A DNA stretch of 37,593 nucleotides from Hymenobacter sp. Lineage in GTDB: Bacteria > Bacteroidota > Bacteroidia > Cytophagales > Hymenobacteraceae. This document shows positions 21,271 through 37,593 of the stretch, one piece after another. Each line of letters starts with the position of its first letter. Positions within the stretch are counted from its first letter, which is position 1. Position numbers and translations under genes: made by a program. The stretch lies in assembly GCA_025356245.1 (NCBI GenBank), contig JANXUO010000241.1, positions 1 to 37,593 on the forward strand, given 5' to 3'. The notes under the pieces are model-generated. The model saw only the letters and a program-made list of their open reading frames with translations, was not told the origin of the DNA and made no database searches.

Positions 21271-22341
21271 ATGCTGCTCAAATCTGCCCCTGTGCTGACC
21301 AAACTTAACGACCGTCAGCGCCAGTACCTACTGGCTGCTTACCAGCTCGACCAACGGTTGGAGGCAGCCCACAAACACGATTACCACAGCGGCATCAGCT
21401 AGCTGGCTGCGGAGTGGCGGGCGATGCCCTACGGGCGGTGGCAACATTTTTTGGGGAAACCGCCGACTGAGTTACGGCAGTTGATAGAGGCGCAGCGGCA
21501 GTTGATAGAGGCGCAGCAAGTCGTCAGCCGGCAGCGGCTGGTAGATTCGGGCACCGGCAGCACGTGGAAGGCCCTGACCGAACGCGGCCTAATCGAAGTG
21601 GAAGAGCGGGCAATCATAGTAGGTCCCGGTGCCTATTCCCTCCCTCATATTCTATTGACCCGCGAGGGGCGCAAATTGGTGCGCCAACTTACCGGCGAAG
21701 TGCGCGCAGTGGTGCCACGTAAGGTTAAGCCACCGCAACCCGAGGGCTTGTTGCCAGCGCCGCAGTGGTTGGCCGTGGTACGCCTCTACGAGCTGGACCA
21801 CGAAGGGCTGGCCGCCGATGACACCCAATGCCTGAGTTACGGCCGCATCCATTACAATACACTGGTGCTGCTGCACGGGCGGGGCCTGGCCACCGGCTCA
21901 CCCGTCAATACGCCGCTGCACGCGGAAAAATATACCATCACCGACCAGGGCCGCGATTTTTACTACGCGCACTACCGGGTCAACGCGTTGGCTCACCGTT
22001 GGGGGCGGGAGTTGCCGCGCCCGCTGCTTACGGCCGAGCAGCGGGGTTTCTGGGAGCGCGTGGCAAGCCTGGGCGAGGCCAAAACCAGGGCCATTGGCAC
22101 CAATAAGGTCGCACACGACGCGCTGCGACGCGAAATGCTCCGGTTACAGATTACCGGCCCGCTGCACACGCTCTACGTAGCACCCTATTGGTACGTGGCC
22201 TTAGCCGGCCGTGGTATTCCACTGGCACCCAACATTGACCTGCTGGACAGCTATTTCAATACGGAAGAAGAAGCGAGAGCCGCTGGTCAGGAAAAAATAA
22301 AGAGTTGGAAATTGCAATTATCCTGGCTAGAAGTGCCGTAA
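21271..22341 (+). pseudogene. Gene with in-frame TAG stop at codon 44, unknown function
   Basis: ATG at 21271 opens 43 codons (MLLKSAPVLTKLNDRQRQYL...), then TAG at 21400-21402. The same frame continues unbroken to 22341. The ORF track shows only the part from ATG 21424 (305 aa). Sequence on both sides looks coding, so the full protein was probably about 356 aa. Translation may restart at 21424, the stop may be read through, or the gene may be broken. The protein has helix-turn-helix-like stretches (TWKALTERGLIEVEERAIIV; GLATGSPV) suggesting two winged-helix-like repeats. A 21-bp perfect tandem duplication encodes RQLIEAQ twice. Function unknown. Confidence 0.6.
21475..21516 (+). repeat. 21-bp perfect tandem duplication inside a gene
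   Basis: CGGCAGTTGATAGAGGCGCAG occurs twice head to tail (21475-21495, 21496-21516), giving RQLIEAQRQLIEAQ. Identical at the DNA level, so it is probably recent replication slippage. Confidence 0.85.
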
Positions 22342-26744: not shown

Positions 26745-26950
26745 CTAAACTGCATAGGCATCCGCTGGTTCGAGGTGGCGCACCAGGGCCATCATGGCTA
26801 GCGTGTCGAGCAAGGGCTTCACCTTGTCGGCTTTGGTGCGCTGGAATCGGGCGGCTATCTGGGCGCTGCTCAAGGCCTCGCTGGCCGCTTGTTGGATGAT
26901 GGCACGCACCGCGAGCATTTGCTGGGCTAACCCGGCCGAACACGGCTGCC
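26745..26950 (-). pseudogene. C-terminal remnant of a winged-helix-containing gene
   Basis: The frame ends LAQQMLAVRAIIQQAASEALSSAQIAARFQRT then KVKPLLDTLAMMALVRHLEPADAYAV, a winged-helix shape (helices, turn, wing). Similar tails occur on DNA-processing enzymes such as restriction-modification proteins. The upstream end runs into IS3 transposase sequence on the opposite strand, so the 5' part of the gene was lost by insertion or deletion. The 80-aa ORF start MSQQSPRRLC lies in the IS part and is not genuine. Confidence 0.5.
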
Positions 26951-26961
26951 AGTGGGCGCAA

Positions 26962-27204
26962 AGCCGACGCGGCGACTGCTGCGACAACGCCCAGGCCGAG
27001 AGCCGGTGGAGCCGCCTTAAAACCGAGGAGCTGGCCGCCCGTGACTGGCCCGTCTTTGCCGACCGGACTGATGCCCAGGCCAGCGTCGCCGCTTATTTTG
27101 ATTACGACAACCATGAACGCCGCCACTCCAGCATCGGCTACTTAATCTCCCATCAATTTCACCAGCAACAACTTGTAAATAACACCCAATTGTGTCCTGT
27201 CTGA
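26962..27204 (+). pseudogene. IS3-family transposase (OrfB) C-terminal fragment
   Basis: SRRGDCCDNAQAESRWSRLKTEE, then a late YFDYDNHERRHSSIGYLISHQF, is the end of the IS3-family integrase core: the DNA-x-ES block contains the catalytic Glu, and the YN-x2-R-x-HS-x-GY motif follows. Only about 80 codons remain. The 136-aa ORF start at 26794 is in the neighbouring gene's antisense and is not genuine. The junction lies around 26950-26962. It separates the plasmid orphan genes from the CRISPR-Cas region. Confidence 0.8.
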
Positions 27205-27321: not shown

Positions 27322-28218
27322 ATGATAGAACAAGCCAAACTGCTGCGGGTGCTGCAAATTATTCGTATGCTACGCAATGGCCAAGGGCGCACACTAGCCC
27401 AACTGGCGCAGGCGCTCGACTGCTCAACGCGGACGGTGCGGCGCTACCTGGACCTGCTGGGAGAGGTGGGCTACCTGGTGGATGAACGGATAAACCGGCG
27501 GGGGGTATTTTTCCTGTTTGAGGGGGAGCCGAAGCAAGCCCCGTTTTTTACGGCGGAAGAAAGCGCTTTGCTGGAGCAGGCCCTGGCGGGGCTGGCGGCG
27601 GGACACCCGCTGGGGGCCGGCCTGCGGCACAAGTTGCGCCGGACAACGGAGCTCATTCCGCTGGCCGACGAGTTGGTAGACTTGCAACGGGGCCGGATGG
27701 TGCAGCAGCTGAGCACGGCGGTGCTGGAACGAAAGCAAGTGCGCCTGGTGCGCTACCAGTCGGCCGACTCGGGCACGAGCCGCGACCGGGTAGTGGAACC
27801 GGTGGCGCTGACGGAAGGCTTCGAGCAACTCAACGCCGTGGAGGTAAGCAGCGGGCAGCTGCGGACCTACAAAATTCGGCGGATGGAGGACGTGGTGGTG
27901 CTGGACCACCCGTGCGTGCATCCGGTGACGGAGGAACACCTGGACCTGTTCGGAATGTCGGGGCCGACGTGGCTGCCCGTGGTGCTACGCCTCACCGAGC
28001 GAGCCTACCGGTTGCTGGTGGAGGAAAACGCCGGGGCGCGGCAGTTCACCAGCCCGGACCTGGCCAGCGGCGAGCGGGGCTACGTATTTCGGGGCCAACT
28101 GCGCAGCTACCTGGGCATTGGCCGGTTCGTGCTGGGGCTGCCCACGGAAGTACGAGCAGTGGAGCCGGAGGCGTTTCGGGTGTTTTTGCGGGAGAAAGTG
28201 GCGCGGGCGCGGTGGTGA
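27322..28218 (+). CDS. WYL-domain transcriptional regulator next to cas operon
   Basis: This 298-aa regulator has a winged helix at residues 1-62: LRVLQIIRMLRNGQGRTLAQLAQAL, CSTRTVRRYLDLLGEVGYLVDE and a beta wing RGVFFLFEG. A WYL domain (about 130-225) contains LERKQVRLVRYQSADSGTSRDRVVEPVAL and the NAVEVSSGQLRTYKIRRMEDVVVL block. A C-terminal WCX-like part follows. WYL proteins bind ligands, often nucleic acid, and control CRISPR and other defence genes. Its stop codon lies inside the palindromes upstream of cas8b, 48 bp before that start. It is likely a repressor or activator of the cas operon. Confidence 0.88.
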   Translation: MIEQAKLLRVLQIIRMLRNGQGRTLAQLAQALDCSTRTVRRYLDLLGEVGYLVDERINRRGVFFLFEGEPKQAPFFTAEESALLEQALAGLAAGHPLGAGLRHKLRRTTELIPLADELVDLQRGRMVQQLSTAVLERKQVRLVRYQSADSGTSRDRVVEPVALTEGFEQLNAVEVSSGQLRTYKIRRMEDVVVLDHPCVHPVTEEHLDLFGMSGPTWLPVVLRLTERAYRLLVEENAGARQFTSPDLASGERGYVFRGQLRSYLGIGRFVLGLPTEVRAVEPEAFRVFLREKVARARW

Positions 28219-28250
28219 CAGTAGTTGTCACGACAATAATCATACTTTTG
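28215..28250 (+). promoter_or_regulatory. cas operon promoter with nested palindromes
   Basis: GTGACA-gtagt-TGTCAC (28215-28231) overlaps TTGTC-ac-GACAA (28225-28236). These sit just upstream of TACTTTTG (28243-28250), an exact TAnnTTTG, 16 bp before the cas8b ATG. They make a likely operator for the WYL regulator. The palindrome includes the WYL stop codon. Confidence 0.6.
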
Positions 28251-28266
28251 AGCAAAATAATCAACC

Positions 28267-30216
28267 ATGCTACAAACACTCATTAAGCTGGGCCAACAGG
28301 GCGGCGAAAGCCGGGGGGCGTGGGACGACATCCTAAAGTTTCCGACAGTTCAAACGGAAGATAAAAAGGGGCCGCTGCGCAATTATTGTCTGCCGGTGTG
28401 CTTTGACTTGGATGCCGGTACGGTGGCCTTGGGCGACTTGCGGGAGTTTCACGACGGCAGCGCACGGGAGTTGTTTAACCTGGCCGTGGGAGGGGGTAAC
28501 AACCCGTCGGTGTACGTGTGCGTGGATGGACGCAAGAATCTGGGACAATTTGCCAAGACATTTTTCGGCAAATCGGCGGAATCCAAACGAGGTGAGTTGC
28601 TGAATGAACTGCAGAAAGTGCCGGGGTTGAACGACAGCCCACTGGCAGAAGTGCTGCGGCGGATGTACCCATTGCGGGTAGCTTTCGAGGCACTGGCGCT
28701 AAATGAGAAGAACGAGACGACGCTAAAGAAGCTTACTGAGACCAAGAAGCTAAAGCTCGACGAGCGGGTCGTGCTGGTGTACGCGGAGGTAAAATGCGCG
28801 GAACTGGCCTTGCCGGGGTTTGCGCCGCTGGCAGAGTTGCGCGAGGGCGAACTACTGGGCGTGGGCGGGTACGCCGATTTCATCCAAAGCCGTTACGTGA
28901 AAACGGGAGCGGCACCTGGCAATGGCGCGGGACGATTGTGCTATGCGACCGGAAACGTCGTGGATGACGCGGGTGAGTTAGACATCAGCGAGCGGTACAG
29001 CCTAAACAAGATGTTCGTGACGACGACGCTGCACTACGCCCCCAACTTTGTCAAGAACGACTACCGGCAGCAATACCAGGTAAGTGCAGCCGCCCAGCAG
29101 CTACTGGAGCGCGGTTCGAAGAAGTTACTGGAACGCTACAAAATCAGGATTGCGGGCATTGACCACTGCTTGGTGCCCCAACTGCTGAGCACGGACGCAA
29201 CGGCCGTGGAAAGCTGTTTGCCTCAACTGAGCCGCAAAGCGGACCTGCTCTTCCAGTACAAAAAAATCACGGATGCTGAGGAGGAATTGCGGCTTGACTC
29301 GAACGTATACTGGATTACGTTTCTGGGCTTTGAATCAGATGGCAACTTCTTCAAAACCATTAATTTGATTGAGGGAATAAGCCAAACATATTTTTCGCAA
29401 CTGGTGGCTGCGTGTCAGCGGCTGGATGCATCGTGGCGGCAGGCTCCAGGGCTGCCCTGGGCCAACGTAATGGGGCCGCTGAGCTTTAATTTTTACACTG
29501 TGTTTGGGCTGGTGCCAGTACGCAAGGATAAGGAAAAGCGCAACGCGGCACTGCTGCTATTCAAGCAGATATTGGAACGGCGGCCGGTGCGGCGAGAAGC
29601 GCTGTTCGGGTATTTCAGCGAGGTGGTGCTCTGCCACCGCTACCGACGCTATTTGGCCTACGGCAACATCTACGATAACAACCAGGCCGGAAAGCTGAGC
29701 ACGGCGCAGGCGTTCGACTATGCGGTGCGGGCGACGGTGTACCAGTACCTTGCTTTATTCAATCTACTCACCAGTTTTCAGCTTTTACCTTCCATGACCA
29801 ATGCACAAGCAACGGAGCCGACAGATGCTCCAGAATCGCAAACGGAGATTTCGGAAACCCAGCAAAAAGAGGAGGCCTTCTTCACCCGAATGGAATACCA
29901 GGATTCGCACAAAGCCCTCTATTATCTGGGCCGCGCACTGAGCAAAATTGCACGCGTACAGTCAGACAAAGGCTACAAGTCGAAGCCCATTATGGAGCGG
30001 CTGAATTACTCGGGCATGGACCTGAAATCCATTGTGCGGCTAAGCGAGGATTTGATGGACAAGGTGCGGCAGTTCCAACTGAGCAAGGAGCCGAAAAAGA
30101 GCCCCGAGAAAGCGCTCCGGCATTTCACCAACTACTTCAAGTACGTGGGCTGGAATATGCCCCCCGACGAGGCCCTGTTTTTTATCCTTTCCGGGTACAG
30201 CTACACCACCAAATAA
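28267..30216 (+). CDS. cas8b: Cas8b (Csh1/TM1802-type), large subunit of type I-B Cascade
   Basis: This 649-aa protein leads the operon and has the length and position of the type I-B large subunit. MLQTLIKLGQQGGESRGAWDDIL and the later LRNYCLPVCFDLDAGTVAL resemble the Csh1 N-terminus. Near the end come DSHKALYYLGRALSKIARVQ and a small helical region RLSEDLMDKVRQFQ with FFILSGYSY, which may play the small-subunit role. Cas8b recognises PAM and helps load target DNA. No zinc finger is obvious. Family-level sequence conservation is low, so the call leans on position and these blocks. Confidence 0.85.
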   Translation: MLQTLIKLGQQGGESRGAWDDILKFPTVQTEDKKGPLRNYCLPVCFDLDAGTVALGDLREFHDGSARELFNLAVGGGNNPSVYVCVDGRKNLGQFAKTFFGKSAESKRGELLNELQKVPGLNDSPLAEVLRRMYPLRVAFEALALNEKNETTLKKLTETKKLKLDERVVLVYAEVKCAELALPGFAPLAELREGELLGVGGYADFIQSRYVKTGAAPGNGAGRLCYATGNVVDDAGELDISERYSLNKMFVTTTLHYAPNFVKNDYRQQYQVSAAAQQLLERGSKKLLERYKIRIAGIDHCLVPQLLSTDATAVESCLPQLSRKADLLFQYKKITDAEEELRLDSNVYWITFLGFESDGNFFKTINLIEGISQTYFSQLVAACQRLDASWRQAPGLPWANVMGPLSFNFYTVFGLVPVRKDKEKRNAALLLFKQILERRPVRREALFGYFSEVVLCHRYRRYLAYGNIYDNNQAGKLSTAQAFDYAVRATVYQYLALFNLLTSFQLLPSMTNAQATEPTDAPESQTEISETQQKEEAFFTRMEYQDSHKALYYLGRALSKIARVQSDKGYKSKPIMERLNYSGMDLKSIVRLSEDLMDKVRQFQLSKEPKKSPEKALRHFTNYFKYVGWNMPPDEALFFILSGYSYTTK

Positions 30217-30239
30217 CCAACTTTTTTTCAACCCACCTC

Positions 30240-31238
30240 ATGCCCTTACTCCAACGCAACTCCGACTTTCTGTTTGTTTACGATGCCACGCAGTGCAACC
30301 CGAACGGCGACCCCGACCAAGAAAACAAGCCCCGCATGGACTACGATACCGACACCAACCTGGTGACGGACACGCGGGTAAAGCGCTACGTGCGCGATTA
30401 CCTCAAGATGAGTGGCCACGCTATTTTCGTGGACGGCGAAGACGGGGCCAAAGTGAGCCCGGCGTCCAAGTTGCAGGTTGTGGTGGCGCGGGCGCTGGCC
30501 GAGCCGGCAACGGTGACCGCGCTTTTTGCCGAAAAGCCGGAATTGGAAGCGCCACTGCGGACCATTATGACGGCCGAGGGCAGCGCAGACAAGGTTTTCA
30601 AAAAGCTACAGAGCAAAGAGAACCGGACGCTCAGCCTGTACTTGCTGGCGCAACTGGTAAAGCAGCAATTTGTGGACATCCGGCTGTTTGGCAGCGCTTT
30701 CGCAGTGGAAGGGTTCAACCGGGCCTACACCGGGCCGGTGCAACTCAACTGGGGCTACTCACTAAACCGGGTGAAGCTCATGGAATCGAGCACCATTGCC
30801 TCGACGATGAACGACGACAACGGCACGTTTGGCAAGGACTACCGGGTGCATTACAGTCTGCTGGCCTTCAACGGTACGGTGAACCGCTTTGCGGCGCAAA
30901 CGTCGGGGCTGACGGACGAAGACCTGGCGCTGTTTCGGGAGGCGCTCTGGGACAGCATTCCGGCCCTGCCGACGCGCTCGAAGCTGAACCAGTACCCGAA
31001 ACTCTACGTGGAGGTGGTGTACAAGGACGGCAAAGCCAACGGGCAGCTGGGCGACTTGCGCAACTATCTGAAGGTGGCGGCCCGACAAGGCGAGGAAACG
31101 GCGGTGCGGCGCTTTGAGGATTTGCACTTCGACACCGACGCGCTGATGGCCGCCATCGGACAGTGCGAAGCCGTGGACTACGCCATCGTGCGGACCGGGC
31201 CGGGCTTGACGGTGGCCAACCCCAAGCCCCGCGCCTGA
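30240..31238 (+). CDS. cas7: Cas7 (Csh2-type) Cascade backbone
   Basis: This 332-aa protein begins NSDFLFVYDATQCNPNGDPD, the Cas7 N-terminal motif with the conserved NPNGDP, then RMDYDTDTNLVTDTRVKRYVRDYL. Later blocks are FVDIRLFGSAFAVEG and the GPVQLNWGYSLNRVKLMESS thumb-like segment. Cas7 forms the helical filament along crRNA. The stop TGA overlaps the cas5 ATG by one base (TGATG). It follows cas8b by 23 bp. Confidence 0.93.
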   Translation: MPLLQRNSDFLFVYDATQCNPNGDPDQENKPRMDYDTDTNLVTDTRVKRYVRDYLKMSGHAIFVDGEDGAKVSPASKLQVVVARALAEPATVTALFAEKPELEAPLRTIMTAEGSADKVFKKLQSKENRTLSLYLLAQLVKQQFVDIRLFGSAFAVEGFNRAYTGPVQLNWGYSLNRVKLMESSTIASTMNDDNGTFGKDYRVHYSLLAFNGTVNRFAAQTSGLTDEDLALFREALWDSIPALPTRSKLNQYPKLYVEVVYKDGKANGQLGDLRNYLKVAARQGEETAVRRFEDLHFDTDALMAAIGQCEAVDYAIVRTGPGLTVANPKPRA

Positions 31239-32005
31239 TGGAGGTGCTCACGTTCGACCTAGTGGGCAAGATGGCCCACTTCCGAAAATATTACGCCAAC
31301 AATACGGCCCTGAGTTTCACCCTGCCACCGCGCACTACCCTGATGGGGATGCTGGCGGCCGTGCTGGGCCTGCCCCGCGACACCTATTACGAGGCGCTGG
31401 GCAGCCGGCACCTGCGGCTGGGCGTGGGGGCGTGCGAGCCGCTGAAAAAGGCGTTTCACCGGCTCAACTACCTCAAGGTAGAAGCTGGCAAAGACTTGGA
31501 CGGGTCGAAGGGCCGCATCCAGTTGCCGTTTGAGGTAGTAACGGGCTACGACCTGGCCCGTGACATGGTGCGCTACCGGGTGTACGTAAGCCCCACGACG
31601 AGCGGCGCGGCGGTATTCGAGCAGCTTTGGGAGCGGCTGCGGCCAGGCGGAGCGGGGCCGTATTTTGCCCTGGCGCTGGGCACGGCCAACTTCGGGGCGA
31701 CGGTGCAGGACGTGGCGCGGCACCCGGCGCGGCTGCGGCGGCTGGACGAGGTGACGGACTTCCACTCCGCCGTACCCACGGCGCGGGTGGTGGCCCTGCC
31801 GACGGGCGCAACGGCGGGGGAATTGTCGGTGGAAGAAGAGTTGTTACCCGCCGACTTCGTAGGCGACGGGCAGCGCGAGTTAGCGGCGATGAACCGGGTG
31901 TTGTTTTCGACCAACGGGCGGCCCCTGCGGGCGCAGGTGGCAGGCGAGTTCGTGGAACTAGGCGAAGGAGCCGACGTGCAGCGCATCTTGTTTCTAGAGG
32001 AGTAA
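31238..32005 (+). CDS. cas5: Cas5 (Cas5b/Cas5h-type)
   Basis: The protein is 255 aa from MEVLTFDLVG, overlapping the cas7 stop by one base; the longer 280-aa ORF start is not real. MAHFRKYYANNTALSFTLPPRTTLMGMLAAVLGLPRD is the classic Cas5 N-terminal RAMP segment. Cas5 caps the 5' handle of crRNA and joins it to Cas8. The C-terminus ends GADVQRILFLEE. cas3 follows after 4 bp with an AGGAG-like ribosome site in the cas5 tail. Confidence 0.92.
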   Translation: MEVLTFDLVGKMAHFRKYYANNTALSFTLPPRTTLMGMLAAVLGLPRDTYYEALGSRHLRLGVGACEPLKKAFHRLNYLKVEAGKDLDGSKGRIQLPFEVVTGYDLARDMVRYRVYVSPTTSGAAVFEQLWERLRPGGAGPYFALALGTANFGATVQDVARHPARLRRLDEVTDFHSAVPTARVVALPTGATAGELSVEEELLPADFVGDGQRELAAMNRVLFSTNGRPLRAQVAGEFVELGEGADVQRILFLEE

Positions 32006-32009
32006 GAGA

Positions 32010-34493
32010 ATGCCATACTACTCGCATAGTGCCCCGACAGGCCAAGGCAAGGGACGGCGCGGCTCAAAGCTGCTACGCGACCACGTGGCCGGCGTGGCCG
32101 AAAAGGCTACCGCCGCCTACTTCGACGGGCACGGCCTGCCCGAAGGCGAGCAGGTGCGCGAGCTGGTGGCGCGGGTGTGCCAGGTACACGACCTGGGCAA
32201 GTACACGCCGCACTTTCAGCACTACTTGCTGGGCACGGGGGCCTTCGACCAGCAGCTCAAGCAGCACGCCAAGTTTGGGGCCTACGCGCTGTACGAGTGG
32301 TACCGGAGCGAAGGAAGGGAATGGCTGGGATTGCTGGGCCTGTACCTGGTGGTCCATCACCACAAAAGCCTGACCGACCTGGGCGGATTGGGGCGGCTGG
32401 TGAGCCCGGGCGAAGAACACGCGGACGTGTTTGGGGGGCAATTAGCAAGCCTTGGCGACGAGCTGAATACCGCCTTGCAGGACGGCAACCTGGAGGCGCT
32501 GCGGCCGTTCGTGCGGTTCCCGGAGGCCAAGCCCTTGCAACGGCTGTTGAGCAACTACTGCAAACGGCCGGTGATGCCGCAAAGCATTAAGTGGTATTTT
32601 CTGGTGAATTATGCCTTCTCGCTGCTCATTGAGGCCGACAAGCTGGATGCGTCCGACACGGTGCCCTACCAGCGGCGGGCGCTGCCGACCGGGGCCGTGG
32701 CCGCCCGGTTAGGCCCGGCCCCCTGGGAGCCGGGCATGGCACTGGCGGACCTGAGCCAGAACGGGCTGCGCACCTGGGTGCGGGGCCGGGTGCTGAGTGC
32801 GCTGGACGACCCCGCCCTGGCCAGCGAGCGGCTCTTTACCCTCACCGCGCCCACGGGCATCGGCAAAACGCTCACGGCGCTGGACTTCGCCCTGCGCTTG
32901 CGCGAGCAGGTGGCAACAGCGGAGGGCTACCAGCCGCAAATTATTTACGGACTGCCGTTCATCAACATCATCGAGCAGGCCGTGGCGGAGTACGAGCGGA
33001 CGCTGGGGCAGAAGGTGCTGGCCCACTACCAGTACGCCGACGCGCTGGAGCAGCTGCACGAGCGCAAGCGCGACGACGGGCAAGAGGAAAACGAGGCCTA
33101 CAACAACCAGGCCTACAACCAGAAACGGATGCTGGTGGATACCTGGCAGGGCGATGTGGTAATTACCTCGTTTGTGCAACTGCTGCAAACCTTGATTGGG
33201 CACCGCAACAAACTGCTGCTCAAATTCCATCATTTGGCGGGCAGCATCATTATTTTCGACGAAGTACAGACTCTGCGGCTGGGACAACTGCCACTGGTGG
33301 GCGCGGTGCTCTATTACCTGGCGCGGCACCTCAACGCCCGCGTGCTGCTGATGACGGCCACCCGGCCGCTCACGTTTGAACTGGCCTACCGGGCGATATT
33401 GAAGGACGAGGGCGAGGCCGTGCCGGTGGTGCGCGAACTGCTGCCCGAGTACGAGGCCGTGTTTGGCACGTTTCAGCGCACCCAATTGGTGTCGCTGCTG
33501 CATCAGCCACTGCTTGATGAGGCCGCTTTCGTTGGGCTGGCCTTTAGCAAGTGGTGGTCGACGGAACGGTCGGCGCTGGTGGTGTGCAACCTGGTGCGGC
33601 GCTCGGTGGGGGTGTACGAGGTCGTACGGGCTTACCTGGACGAAATGGGGTTGGACAACCCGCTCTACTACCTCTCGACCAACGTGGTGCCGGTGGCGCG
33701 GCTGGCGGTGATTGAGCAAATCAAGGCTGACCTGCGGGCCGGGCACAAACCGGTACTGATTGCCACGCAGGTGGTCGAAGCTGGGGTGGACCTTGATTTT
33801 GACCTGGGTTTCCGGGACCTAGGGCCGGTGGACTCGCTGGTGCAGGTGGCGGGCCGCATCAACCGCGAGAACAGCCCGGCGCGGGCGTTGGCCCCGCTCT
33901 ACGTGGTGGATTTCAACGACGGTACCCGCAGCGACTGCGAGAAGATTTATGACCGCATCACCACGGAGCAGTCGCGCCGGGCACTGGAGGCGCTTTCGGA
34001 AGACGGAACGCGGCCGATACCGGAGCCGGAATACCTGAGCTTGGTGAGTAAGTATTTTGAGGCCACGGCGGAAGTGAGTGCTTTTGAGGAAGCCCGCAAG
34101 CTGTTTGCGGGGATGAAGGCCCTGAATTACGACAACCGCGAGGCCGATACCACACCCGTGTCGGCGTTCCGGTTGATTGACGACAAGGGCCTGACGGCTT
34201 CCGTGTTTGTGGAGTTGGACGAACGCGGGCGAGAGGTACGGGCTTTATTTAGCGACTACATCCGCAAGCAACTTCCGGCCAGCGAGTGGGAGCGGCACAA
34301 GCGCGACTTTAACCAGCGCATCATTTCGGTACCAGGCTACCTGCCACGGGTGGAAGCGTTGAGACAAACCCAAGCCAACGTACTCTGCGAGGGGCTATTG
34401 GTAATTAATCATCACGAATTGAGCGACTATTATGACCTCACTACCGGATTTCGCCGCGATGCCGAGCCAGCGGGCCAGCACCATATTCTCTGA
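32010..34493 (+). CDS. cas3: Cas3 helicase-nuclease with N-terminal HD domain
   Basis: This 827-aa protein combines both Cas3 activities. The HD nuclease lies at about residues 10-230: LLRDHVAGVAEKA supplies the first His and VHDLGKY the H60-D61 pair. The SF2 helicase shows Walker A TAPTGIGKT (K286), the DEVQ box in IIFDEVQTL (D417), LLMTATRP as motif III, and QVAGRINRENSP as motif VI. It shreds target DNA bound by the complex. The gene overlaps the next ORF, cas6, by up to 62 bp. All motifs look intact. Confidence 0.95.
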   Translation: MPYYSHSAPTGQGKGRRGSKLLRDHVAGVAEKATAAYFDGHGLPEGEQVRELVARVCQVHDLGKYTPHFQHYLLGTGAFDQQLKQHAKFGAYALYEWYRSEGREWLGLLGLYLVVHHHKSLTDLGGLGRLVSPGEEHADVFGGQLASLGDELNTALQDGNLEALRPFVRFPEAKPLQRLLSNYCKRPVMPQSIKWYFLVNYAFSLLIEADKLDASDTVPYQRRALPTGAVAARLGPAPWEPGMALADLSQNGLRTWVRGRVLSALDDPALASERLFTLTAPTGIGKTLTALDFALRLREQVATAEGYQPQIIYGLPFINIIEQAVAEYERTLGQKVLAHYQYADALEQLHERKRDDGQEENEAYNNQAYNQKRMLVDTWQGDVVITSFVQLLQTLIGHRNKLLLKFHHLAGSIIIFDEVQTLRLGQLPLVGAVLYYLARHLNARVLLMTATRPLTFELAYRAILKDEGEAVPVVRELLPEYEAVFGTFQRTQLVSLLHQPLLDEAAFVGLAFSKWWSTERSALVVCNLVRRSVGVYEVVRAYLDEMGLDNPLYYLSTNVVPVARLAVIEQIKADLRAGHKPVLIATQVVEAGVDLDFDLGFRDLGPVDSLVQVAGRINRENSPARALAPLYVVDFNDGTRSDCEKIYDRITTEQSRRALEALSEDGTRPIPEPEYLSLVSKYFEATAEVSAFEEARKLFAGMKALNYDNREADTTPVSAFRLIDDKGLTASVFVELDERGREVRALFSDYIRKQLPASEWERHKRDFNQRIISVPGYLPRVEALRQTQANVLCEGLLVINHHELSDYYDLTTGFRRDAEPAGQHHIL

Positions 34494-35181
34494 GCCAACC
34501 GTAGCTGGGCTGGGACAAGTCCCCCTCACCACCATCACGCTGCCCGAAATCACGCTGCGAACCCGCGACGCGCACAAGCTGCGCGGGTACTTCGGCGAAC
34601 TGTTTCGGGAGCATTCGCCGCTCCTGCACAACCACTACGCCGATGGCACGTTCCGGCAAGGCTACCCGCTGGTGCAATACAAGGTGTTGGGCGGCACCCC
34701 CACGCTGGTGGGCCTGGGCGAGGGCGCGGCGTTGCTCGTGGAGCTGTTTCTGCGCATCCGGGAGCTGGATTTGGAGGGGCGGCGCTACCCGGTGCTGGCC
34801 AAGCACATTACCCACGAGCAGGCGGCGGTGGGCGTGGACGCGGGGGCGCTTCATTCCTACCGCTTCGAAACGCTGTGGCTGCCGCTGAACCAGGAAAACC
34901 ACCGCGAGTACCAGGAGCTGGGGCCGGCGGAACGGCAGCAGCAGCTGAACCGCATCCTGAACAACAACATCCTGGCGTTTCTGAAGCGGGTGGAGGCCGA
35001 CACGACGGCGCGGGTGCTGCTGCAGCTGCGGCTGACGGCACCGGTGGTGACGCTGTTTAAGAACCAGCCGATGCTGGGCTTCGGGGGCGAGTTTGTGACC
35101 AACGCCGTGCTGCCGGCGGGCGTGGGGCTGGGCAAGTCGGTGGCACGCGGGTTCGGGACGGTGGTCAGCAACAACCCCTAG
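34432..35181 (+). CDS. cas6: Cas6b-type crRNA endonuclease
   Basis: This 249-aa protein (or 240 aa from the ATG at 34459) overlaps the cas3 end by 62 or 35 bp. The N-terminal half has AHKLRGYFGELFREHSPLLHNHY and YPLVQYKVLGGTPTLVGLGEGA, which fit the Cas6b N-terminal domain. The end has a Gly-rich loop PAGVGLGKSVARGFGTVV, the RNA-binding feature of Cas6. The catalytic His may be in LHNHY. It should cut the 37-nt repeats to leave the ATTGAAAC tag. Position after cas3 rather than before cas8 is unusual for type I-B. Confidence 0.8.
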   Translation: MTSLPDFAAMPSQRASTIFSEPTVAGLGQVPLTTITLPEITLRTRDAHKLRGYFGELFREHSPLLHNHYADGTFRQGYPLVQYKVLGGTPTLVGLGEGAALLVELFLRIRELDLEGRRYPVLAKHITHEQAAVGVDAGALHSYRFETLWLPLNQENHREYQELGPAERQQQLNRILNNNILAFLKRVEADTTARVLLQLRLTAPVVTLFKNQPMLGFGGEFVTNAVLPAGVGLGKSVARGFGTVVSNNP

Positions 35182-35196
35182 CCTGGCTTACGTCCC

Positions 35197-36222
35197 ATGC
35201 ACCTACACCTCAACAGCTACGGCAGCTACCTCCACGTGAAGGACGAACTGTTTGAAATCAGGAAGAAGAACGCGGCGGGCGAAGTGGAAAAGCACCAGTA
35301 CGCGGCCCACAAGCTGCGCGGCATCGTGCTGGGCCTGGGCACGGCCTTGAGCAGCGACGCCGTGCGGTTGGCCATGCGCCACAACGTGGACCTGCTGTTC
35401 GTGGAAAACGACGGCACGCCGGTGGGGCGGGTGTGGCACAGCCGGCTGGGCAGCACCACCAAAATCAGGAAGGCGCAGCTGGAGGCCAGCCTGGGGGCAG
35501 CCGGGTTGCAGTGGACGAAAACCTGGCTGGATGCGAAGCTGGGCAACCAACTGGAGCTGGTGCGGGGCCTACGCAAGCACCGGGTGCAACACGGCGCGTA
35601 CCTGGACGACAAGCTGACGCGCCTGGAGGCATTGCGCGCGGCCGTGGCCGTGCTGGAAGGCCCGACGGTGGAAACGGTGGCCGCCACCCTGCGCGGGCTG
35701 GAGGGCACGGCGGGCCGGCTGTATTTCGAAACGCTGAGCTTCGTGCTGCCCGCCGACTACCAATTTGCCGGGCGCAGCAGCCGGCCAGCGCTTGACGCGT
35801 TCAACGCCTTCCTGAACTACGGCTACGGCATTCTTTACAGCCGAGTCGAGAAGGCCCTCATCGTGGCCGGCGTGGACCCCTACTTGGGGTTTCTGCACCG
35901 CGACGACTACAACCACCTGAGCATGGTGTTCGACTTCATTGAGCCGTACCGGAACTGGGTGGACGAGGCCGTGTTTCGGCTGTTTACGGCCAAGAAAGTA
36001 AACAAGGCCCACACCGACAAGCTGACCAATGGGGTCAGCCTGAATGCGGATGGCAAGGCCCTGCTGGTGGAAGCGGTGGGGCGGGTGTTGGACGCCGAAA
36101 CCGTGCGGCACCGGGGGCGCAACTTGCTGCGCAGCGTGGCCATGCAATACGACGCCCACAAGTTTGCCAACGCCCTGCTCGGGCAGCCCGATGCGGCGGT
36201 GGGAGCCCCGGAGCAGCTCTGA
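35197..36222 (+). CDS. cas1: Cas1 integrase
   Basis: This 341-aa protein has the Cas1 architecture: an N-terminal beta domain (MHLHLNSYGSYLHVKDELFEI, ALSSDAVRLAMRHNVDLLFVE) and an alpha-helical catalytic domain. Likely metal-binding residues are E169 in GLEGTAGRLYF, H234 in YLGFLHRDDYNH and D246 in VFDFIEPYR. Cas1 with Cas2 inserts spacers next to the leader. It follows cas6 by 15 bp. The family match is strong and the length normal. Confidence 0.96.
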   Translation: MHLHLNSYGSYLHVKDELFEIRKKNAAGEVEKHQYAAHKLRGIVLGLGTALSSDAVRLAMRHNVDLLFVENDGTPVGRVWHSRLGSTTKIRKAQLEASLGAAGLQWTKTWLDAKLGNQLELVRGLRKHRVQHGAYLDDKLTRLEALRAAVAVLEGPTVETVAATLRGLEGTAGRLYFETLSFVLPADYQFAGRSSRPALDAFNAFLNYGYGILYSRVEKALIVAGVDPYLGFLHRDDYNHLSMVFDFIEPYRNWVDEAVFRLFTAKKVNKAHTDKLTNGVSLNADGKALLVEAVGRVLDAETVRHRGRNLLRSVAMQYDAHKFANALLGQPDAAVGAPEQL

Positions 36223-36293
36223 GTCTGGCGGAGGCGGCCGGTTTGGCCCGCCCCAACCAATCATCAAAAATCAACTTTACATCTCATCAGCGC

Positions 36294-36587
36294 ATGATTG
36301 TTTGGGTTTTATACGACATCAAGGCCGACCGGGCGCGGGCGAAGGCAGCCAAGGTTTGCAAGCAGGCGGGGCTGTACCGGGTGCAGCACTCGTGTTTTTT
36401 GGGGTCGCTGGGCGGTTCGGCCGAGCGCGACACGCTGCAACTGCAACTGGCGGCACTTATCGACGAGGACGTGGACAAGGTGTACGTGTTCAACATGAAC
36501 CGGCAAGAGTTACAGCAGACGGTGCTGCTGGGGCAGGCCTTCGACAGACGCCTGGTAACGGACGAGGTACAGGCCCTTTTTCTGTAA
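36294..36587 (+). CDS. cas2: Cas2
   Basis: A 97-aa ferredoxin-like protein starting MIVWVLYDIKADRARAKAAKVC; the conserved Asp8 ends the first strand. QAGLYRVQHSCFLGSLGGSAER and DEDVDKVYVFNMNRQELQQ follow the Cas2 pattern. The 114-aa ORF start is upstream of the likely start and is not used. It forms the core of the Cas1-Cas2 complex. It lies 71 bp after cas1. Confidence 0.94.
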   Translation: MIVWVLYDIKADRARAKAAKVCKQAGLYRVQHSCFLGSLGGSAERDTLQLQLAALIDEDVDKVYVFNMNRQELQQTVLLGQAFDRRLVTDEVQALFL

Positions 36588-36617
36588 CCCTGTAACCCTT
36601 TATCCCCCCTGCCGACC

Positions 36618-37190
36618 ATGACCCTTACGCCCTCGCACTTGATTGAGTACTTGTACTGCCCGCGCTTCACGTACTTCGAGTACGTGCTGCGGGTGCCCCA
36701 ATACGAAGCCGATAACTACAAGGTGATGCGGGGCCGGGGGCTGCACGACGACCGGCTGGAACAGAACAAAGACTATCTGCGGCGCCGGCTGGGCGTAGTG
36801 GACAAGCAATTGGACCAGTACCTGACCAATGACCTGCTGCGCGGCCGGGTGGATGAGGTGCTGAAGTTGGCCGACGGCAGCTGGGCACCCCTGGACTATA
36901 AATTTGCGGAGTGGAAGGACACGGTGTACGAAACCTACCGGACCCAACTCTACTGCTACGCCTGGCTGATAGAGGACAACCTGGGCGGTGAGGTAAAGCG
37001 GGGCTTTATCGTGTACACCCGCAGTCGCAATAAGGTGGTGGAAGTACCGGTAACCCGCGCCGACATAGCCGACGTGAAGCGCGTGGCAGCGGCCGTGCTG
37101 GACATCATCGGCCGCAACGCGTACCCGAAAGCAACCCGCTACAAAAGCCGTTGCGTAACTTGCACCTACCGAAAAATATGCACACAATGA
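36618..37190 (+). CDS. cas4: Cas4 Fe-S nuclease
   Basis: This 190-aa RecB-like nuclease should trim prespacers and check their PAM. Fe-S ligands are C14 (IEYLYCPRF), C179, C182 and C188 in the final RCVTCTYRKICT. The nuclease core has H43 in GRGLHDDRL, D79 in GRVDEVL, and D93 and K95 in LDYKFAEWKD, followed by QLYCYAWL. It is the last gene before the leader, whereas type I-B operons usually put cas4 before cas1. It lies 30 bp after cas2. Confidence 0.94.
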   Translation: MTLTPSHLIEYLYCPRFTYFEYVLRVPQYEADNYKVMRGRGLHDDRLEQNKDYLRRRLGVVDKQLDQYLTNDLLRGRVDEVLKLADGSWAPLDYKFAEWKDTVYETYRTQLYCYAWLIEDNLGGEVKRGFIVYTRSRNKVVEVPVTRADIADVKRVAAAVLDIIGRNAYPKATRYKSRCVTCTYRKICTQ

Positions 37191-37388
37191 ATGGTCGTAG
37201 CCGGGTGATAACTTATCAGGCAAAGGGTTGAAACTGGCATTAACTGACTTTACAACAACAGCTTATGTTTCCGGAAAATGCGGCATTCGCTGTAATTCTA
37301 CGTCCTTTGACCTATTGGGAAATTTATTTTATCTGTTTCAGCAAAGATGATTACAGCTTGTCTGTAAAAGAGTTACATTTGCAGGCGG
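37191..37388 (+). promoter_or_regulatory. CRISPR leader
   Basis: An AT-richer 198-bp stretch between cas4 and the first repeat. TACATTTG at 37374-37381 matches TAnnTTTG and ends 7 bp before repeat 1, so transcription would begin about at the first repeat. A TTG at 37358 is too close to be a normal -33 element. The 101-aa ORF that crosses leader and repeats is not a gene. Confidence 0.7.
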
Positions 37389-37593
37389 CCTCCGGGGCTA
37401 TTCCGACGACCAGACGGATTGAAACACAAGGCCTTAACTGCCTAACCATGAAAGCCCCAACTCCTCCGGGGCTATTCCGACGACCAGACGGATTGAAACT
37501 GCACTGCCTGGCCGAACTCCAGCGCCTGGCCACCAACCTCCGGGGCTATTCCGACGACCAGACGGATTGAAACAGGCGCTGCTCGGCATTCGC
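37389..37593 (+). CRISPR. Type I-B CRISPR array, first three repeats, truncated by window end
   Basis: Three identical 37-bp repeats lie at 37389-37425, 37463-37499 and 37537-37573. They start CCTCCGGGGCTATTCC and end GATTGAAAC, the usual 8-nt ATTGAAAC tag of type I-B crRNA. Spacers are 37 bp each (37426-37462 and 37500-37536), and a third begins at 37574 and runs off the window. Orientation follows the leader and the tag. A weak stem TCCG...CGGA lies just before the tag. The array continues beyond the window, so total size is unknown. I see no spacer match elsewhere in the window. Confidence 0.97.

Follow-up and report, generated by a model that had tools for sequence, protein, structure and literature searches.

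WYL-domain proteins that adjoin, and possibly regulate, CRISPR-Cas systems were proposed in 2014, in a paper that cites one type I-D locus for which regulation by a WYL protein had been shown (PMC4012209). Two known WYL activators provide a promoter geometry for comparison. DriD recognizes the consensus ATACGAC(X)7GTCGTAT at sites lying at one distance from the -10 element, where it flanks sigma region 4 on either side over a -35 element of poor quality (PMC12340889). By our own count, the printed driD, didA and bapE promoters read GTC-N12 to position -12, the conserved G being taken as -14. The PafBC motif, tTGTCRgtg-8nt-TannnT, amounts to TGTC-N12-TA (PMC5656591). For Bacteroidota, neither a published operator of a WYL/CRISPR-Cas pair nor a paper on the operator or unit described below was found in the open-access literature searched, nor was an operator found there for the type I-D regulator Sll7009.

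The window (the whole stretch of DNA analysed, 37,593 nucleotides) corresponds to contig G000:C518 of a Hymenobacter MAG, whose nearest relatives are Hymenobacter. Its forward strand encodes a 298-residue HTH-WYL(-WCX) regulator (27322-28218; Pfam HTH_11 5e-10 and WYL 2e-7, both above cut-off). An AlphaFold2 model gives the secondary-structure order wHTH-3-helix-WYL-WCX, consistent with a class A (HTH-WYL-WCX) WYL protein, with a WCX Pfam score (7e-4) below its own cut-off. The recognition helix was placed by alignment at residues 36-49, with R37 and R41 invariant. A C-terminal remnant of an IS3-family transposase (26794-27204) lies immediately 5' of the WYL gene, and two copies of a perfect 21-nt tandem repeat occur at 21475-21517.

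The WYL gene ends 48 nt before a type I-B CRISPR-Cas operon on the same strand. The first gene of this putatively controlled operon is cas8b (TM1802/Csh1 type, ATG at 28267; 28267-30216), identified by Pfam Cas_TM1802 (6e-40) and by TIGR02591 (4e-10, below cut-off). It is followed by cas7 (Csh2, 30240-31238; TIGR02590 6e-55) and cas5 (31163-32005; TIGR02593 above cut-off, TIGR02592 9e-18 and below cut-off), whose longest ORF overlaps the end of cas7 and whose real start is probably later. Next come cas3 (HD and helicase, 32010-34493; TIGR01587 and TIGR01596), cas6b (34432-35181; Pfam Cas6b_N and Cas6b_C), cas1 (35197-36222; TIGR00287 2e-72) and cas4 (36618-37190; TIGR00372 1e-32). A 97-residue cas2 (36294-36587) sits between cas1 and cas4, where the homologues of relatives are 58-95% identical. 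The operon is followed by a CRISPR array on the forward strand (37390-37593), in which a repeat of about 36 nt occurs three times and within which the contig ends.

The first-pass annotation had described two palindromes sharing TTGTC at the WYL stop codon, just 5' of the cas8b -7 box, and all of these elements are present. P1, the candidate operator (GTGACA-GTAGT-TGTCAC, no strand), occupies 28215-28231 with its GAC-N7-GTC core at 28217-28229. P2 (TTGTC-AC-GACAA, 28225-28236, no strand) overlaps it, and the -7 box, TACTTTTG (28243-28250, forward strand; Bacteroidota consensus TAnnTTTG), lies 13 nt downstream of the TGTC of P1. The annotation was also right that the operator reaches into the reading frame of the regulator: the left arm of P1 contains the WYL stop codon TGA (28216-28218), and the same overlap is seen in L003, L053 and L152, giving four such loci with the window. 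GACA-N5-TGTC occurs only once in the window. As bare palindromes, neither P1 nor P2 exceeds chance; the window has 22 perfect 6-bp/N5 inverted repeats (P1 type) and 64 perfect 5-bp/N2 inverted repeats (P2 type). P1 is significant only because it is conserved and holds a fixed phase to the -7 box.

WYL homologues were searched for in genomes of Hymenobacter (120), Cytophagales (391) and Bacteroidia (395), and the surroundings of 78 WYL loci were read. A scan for GACA-N5-TGTC after the WYL gene (at most one mismatch, near-twin L051 left out) gave a site in 31 loci across Bacteroidia, of the form (T/C)GAC-N7-GTC(A/G); these loci are related and the counts are not independent. No site was found in L059. 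A TAnnTTTG box (at most one mismatch) begins 12 nt (14 loci) or 13 nt (nine loci) past TGTC, so that 23 of the 31 sites stand at a fixed distance from the -7 box and cover the -33 region. The remaining 33 offsets together gave three matches, and the shuffle expectation was 0.23 per offset. At neither of these two offsets do the other eight operators show a clear -7 box. In 466 kb of these loci there were 23 phased sites, of which 21 immediately follow a WYL gene and none precedes it.

Alignment of 29 operators showed the G and C of both half-sites to be invariant and the middle letter to be conserved in 26 of the left and 27 of the right half-sites. The flanking positions, which played no part in site selection, are T or C on the 5' side of GAC and A or G on the 3' side of GTC, with T and A respectively in 23 of 29 each. 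The exact pattern GACAN5TGTCN13TAnnTTTG has three matches in the 120 Hymenobacter genomes, and its reversed control has none there. This count is itself near chance (about 1.6 expected, an estimate); its weight comes from the fact that all three matches lie right after WYL genes. The stricter pattern TTGACA-N5-TGTCA, with N11 to TA, matched once in 381 Cytophagales genomes, with no WYL gene nearby, which is about chance level. Two cas8b loci without a WYL gene (G007 and G175) lack the site. In a tree of WYL proteins those bearing the site cluster, yet do not form a single clade.

A variant missed by the one-mismatch scan, TTGAC-N5-TTGACAA, is phased at 12 nt in L126, L127, L128 and L129, which are WYL paralogues from two genomes (three of them in G729) standing before different operons. 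The large proteins encoded in two of these operons show an apparent P-loop and matched nothing in PADLOC. The WYL gene is interrupted or truncated in L055, L063 and L077; L055 retains the cas genes and the site, and in L063 no cas genes were found nearby.

The closest relatives show what is kept at the cas promoter. The sites read GTGTCA-GTAGT-TGTCACGGAGG in L002, GTGACA-GTAGT-TGTCAAAACC in L003, GGACA-CAAGC-TGTCCTGC in L004 and TTGACA-CAAAT-TGTCCTGC in L005, and in all four a -7-like box stands 13 nt past TGTC. The first gene of L003 and L005 belongs to a different Cas8b lineage from that of the window, yet the candidate site keeps its place in front of cas8b, at the promoter, as it does in L004, where the gap between WYL and cas8b is about 530 bp. 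More generally, with 0.5-2 kb between WYL and the cas promoter the site keeps to the promoter (L004, L056, L058 and L061, compared with L062 and L064). When L003 (2768-12367) is compared with the window (27322-37190), cas6, cas1, cas2 and cas4 are 90-95% identical and WYL is 76% identical; the effector genes between these conserved flanks are of a different Cas8b lineage, and the effector module looks swapped.

The WYL gene and its phased site precede type I-B operons of three Cas8b lineages. Among the carriers of this unit is H. latericoloratus, a cultured species. The candidate site is not specific to type I-B, however, as the same arrangement stands before a HIRAN gene and Cas9-cas1-cas2 in L132, before Cas12a-cas4-cas1-cas2 in L152 and before a HIRAN gene and Wadjet JetABCD in L136. 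The HIRAN-domain gene, of about 110 codons, is the first after the operator in both cases (L132, 6378-6707; L136, 11572-11898). In the Hymenobacteraceae loci L049, L050 and L065 the unit precedes modules whose sole recognized domain is TPR. The modules of L049, L050, L051 and L065 pair a TPR protein with a conserved protein carrying CAYTGE...DKDHA, possibly an HNH-like nuclease, and in L010, from the same genome as L050, another site precedes the second gene. A known defence system was adjacent in 22 of 30 loci with the site, against four of 39 without it (Fisher p = 1e-7).

Two further roles for the site were rejected. Against control of the CRISPR array stand the leaders of the window and six relatives (L003, L005, L052, L056, L060 and L061), all of which lack the candidate operator. 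Against WYL autoregulation through the site stands the finding that in no operator-bearing locus is there a phased site upstream of WYL. The leader of the window has a palindrome of its own, TTACAG-CTTGT-CTGTAA (37351-37367), near TACATTTG (37374-37381), which is not conserved in the leaders of the same six relatives.

Among PDB profiles the WYL protein of the window matched PafBC best (8e-14), followed by DriD (1e-6) and BrxR (2e-5). Foldseek placed DriD first, and DriD and PafBC above CapW and BrxR, a weak ranking as the model has a pTM of 0.38 and a poor domain arrangement; beyond these four, no fold match reached an E below 1e-6. An RTxxR pattern in the recognition helix is common to DriD and the window protein, and is frequent among WYL proteins. 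The fixed distance to the -7 box implies a set position of the bound protein with respect to RNA polymerase. The DriD/PafBC layout, taken together with the protein ranks and RTxxR, leads us to infer that the protein acts as a homodimeric activator of the cas operon, with ssDNA probably as its signal.

The model that we favour, with a little better than even confidence, is that P1 is the WYL binding site at the cas promoter and that a WYL dimer loaded with ssDNA activates the operon. Its observed basis is a conserved site that is phased to the -7 box, linked to the WYL gene and to defence operons, and missing from loci that have no WYL; to this it adds WYL binding, dimerization, the ssDNA signal and activation instead of repression as postulates. 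A WYL homodimer would read the two GAC half-sites of P1 (GAC-N7-GTC), which would straddle the expected -33 position at the fixed 12-13 nt from the -7 box. On the model of DriD and PafBC, the WYL domain would respond to ssDNA derived from damaged or invading DNA, and the loaded dimer would assist RNA polymerase in initiating where the promoter has no good -33 element. This would switch the cas operon on; P2 would have no part in it. The missing -33 element was considered as proof of activation and discarded, since 59 promoter-like background sites also had no clear -33 and the set was too small.

The strongest competitor keeps the same site and the same regulator but makes the protein a repressor of the BrxR/CapW type, whose dimer over -33 would block RNA polymerase until ssDNA or another ligand released it. 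We regard this as the less probable reading, though one with a substantial claim. Well-studied WYL controllers of defence operons repress, as shown for BrxR (PMC9122601, PMC9122589) and CapW (PMC9122588), and likewise for Sll7009 of the type I-D locus (PMC4012209). CapW and BrxR are released by ssDNA (PMC13373217), Acinetobacter BrxR occupies -51 to -27, over the -35 element, with half-sites 5 nt apart (PMC9122589), and fixed phasing could also serve a repressor. On the other hand, BrxR and CapW sites lie 5' of the regulator's own gene or within a promoter that is shared, whereas no operator-bearing locus has a phased site upstream of WYL, which is a mild argument. CapW sites, moreover, overlap the -10 element, and the strict 12-13 nt phasing and the protein ranks fit DriD and PafBC better than BrxR and CapW. 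The first-pass annotation named no polarity; close phasing and agreement with the DriD/PafBC layout tilt the balance towards activation.

It is very improbable that the site is read by a host regulator other than the adjacent WYL protein. The genome-wide pattern search was made at full stringency only, which leaves some room for such a regulator, but the exact phased sites in the 120 Hymenobacter genomes lie only beside WYL genes and loci without WYL lack the site. About as improbable is a two-site switch in which P1 and P2 are bound competitively or cooperatively. Both palindromes exist and have TTGTC in common, and the first-pass annotation had seen in them a compact switch for the type I-B system. 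That proposal stands in so far as a WYL-linked candidate operator lies in the cas promoter. Its overlapping-palindrome design does not stand, as P2 is private to the window: it is missing in each close relative compared (L002, L003, L004 and L005), where P1 is kept, and palindromes of its type are common. P2 is thus probably a chance extra half-site, and comparison of the loci supports P1 alone as functional. Least probable is the idea that P1 is a terminator or RNA hairpin ending the WYL transcript. Its place at the WYL stop codon and the 6-bp stem that it can form would suit one, but its hairpin is no more stable than shuffled sequences (z -0.26), no T run is present, and in L004, L056, L058, L061 and L064 the site goes with the cas promoter and not with the end of WYL.

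What is new is the joining of a DriD-like site geometry to CRISPR and other immune operons. The broader proposal, on which we are evenly divided, is that a portable DriD-type cassette, made up of an activator responsive to ssDNA and its own phased promoter, has been set before unrelated immune operons of Bacteroidota (I-B of three Cas8b lineages, Cas9, Cas12a and Wadjet). The conserved site and its phasing suggest a common damage-sensing switch for several anti-virus systems. If so, adaptive immunity would be turned on by DNA damage or replicating invaders, and not de-repressed. A site of fixed geometry before class 1 and class 2 CRISPR systems and Wadjet makes ssDNA activation of CRISPR directly testable, and the site offers a sequence signature for locating more defence operons in Bacteroidota.

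Of the described systems, Sll7009 of Synechocystis is alike in being a WYL regulator of CRISPR-Cas, as repressor of a type I-D locus, but differs from the window in subtype and phylum. BrxR (BREX) and CapW (CBASS) resemble it in that a WYL regulator adjoins diverse defence operons and the promoter holds an inverted repeat, with 5-nt spacing in BrxR. Their half-sites are longer, however, their sites lie 5' of their own gene or over the -10 element and the sequence match is weaker; the autoregulation typical of them is not reflected here, since no operator-bearing locus has a phased site upstream of WYL. SiwR of mycobacteria, a homodimeric WYL activator, is likewise encoded directly 5' of its operon, and its 19-bp palindrome lies between the -35 and -10 elements of that adjacent operon, which carries DinB-like genes and is linked to genotoxic stress. 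PafBC, also mycobacterial, is a WYL activator working by sigma adaptation and shares the TGTC-N12-TA promoter motif as well as giving the best PDB profile match. It is, however, a PafB/PafC heterodimer with an asymmetric, non-palindromic site and needs RNA polymerase for binding, whereas the window has a single WYL gene and a palindromic site. DriD of Caulobacter crescentus, a homodimeric WYL activator that senses ssDNA, is alike in its HTH-3-helix-WYL-WCX order, in the palindromic GAC-N7-GTC core that the candidate site of the window also carries, in an about equal distance to the -10 element, in a site over the -35 region and in the RTxxR helix. DriD controls DNA-damage genes scattered over the genome, whereas the putative target in the window is a single neighbouring defence operon, whose -7 box is of the Bacteroidota type and whose activation would follow by analogy; on balance, a DriD-like activator is favoured here over a BrxR/CapW-like repressor.
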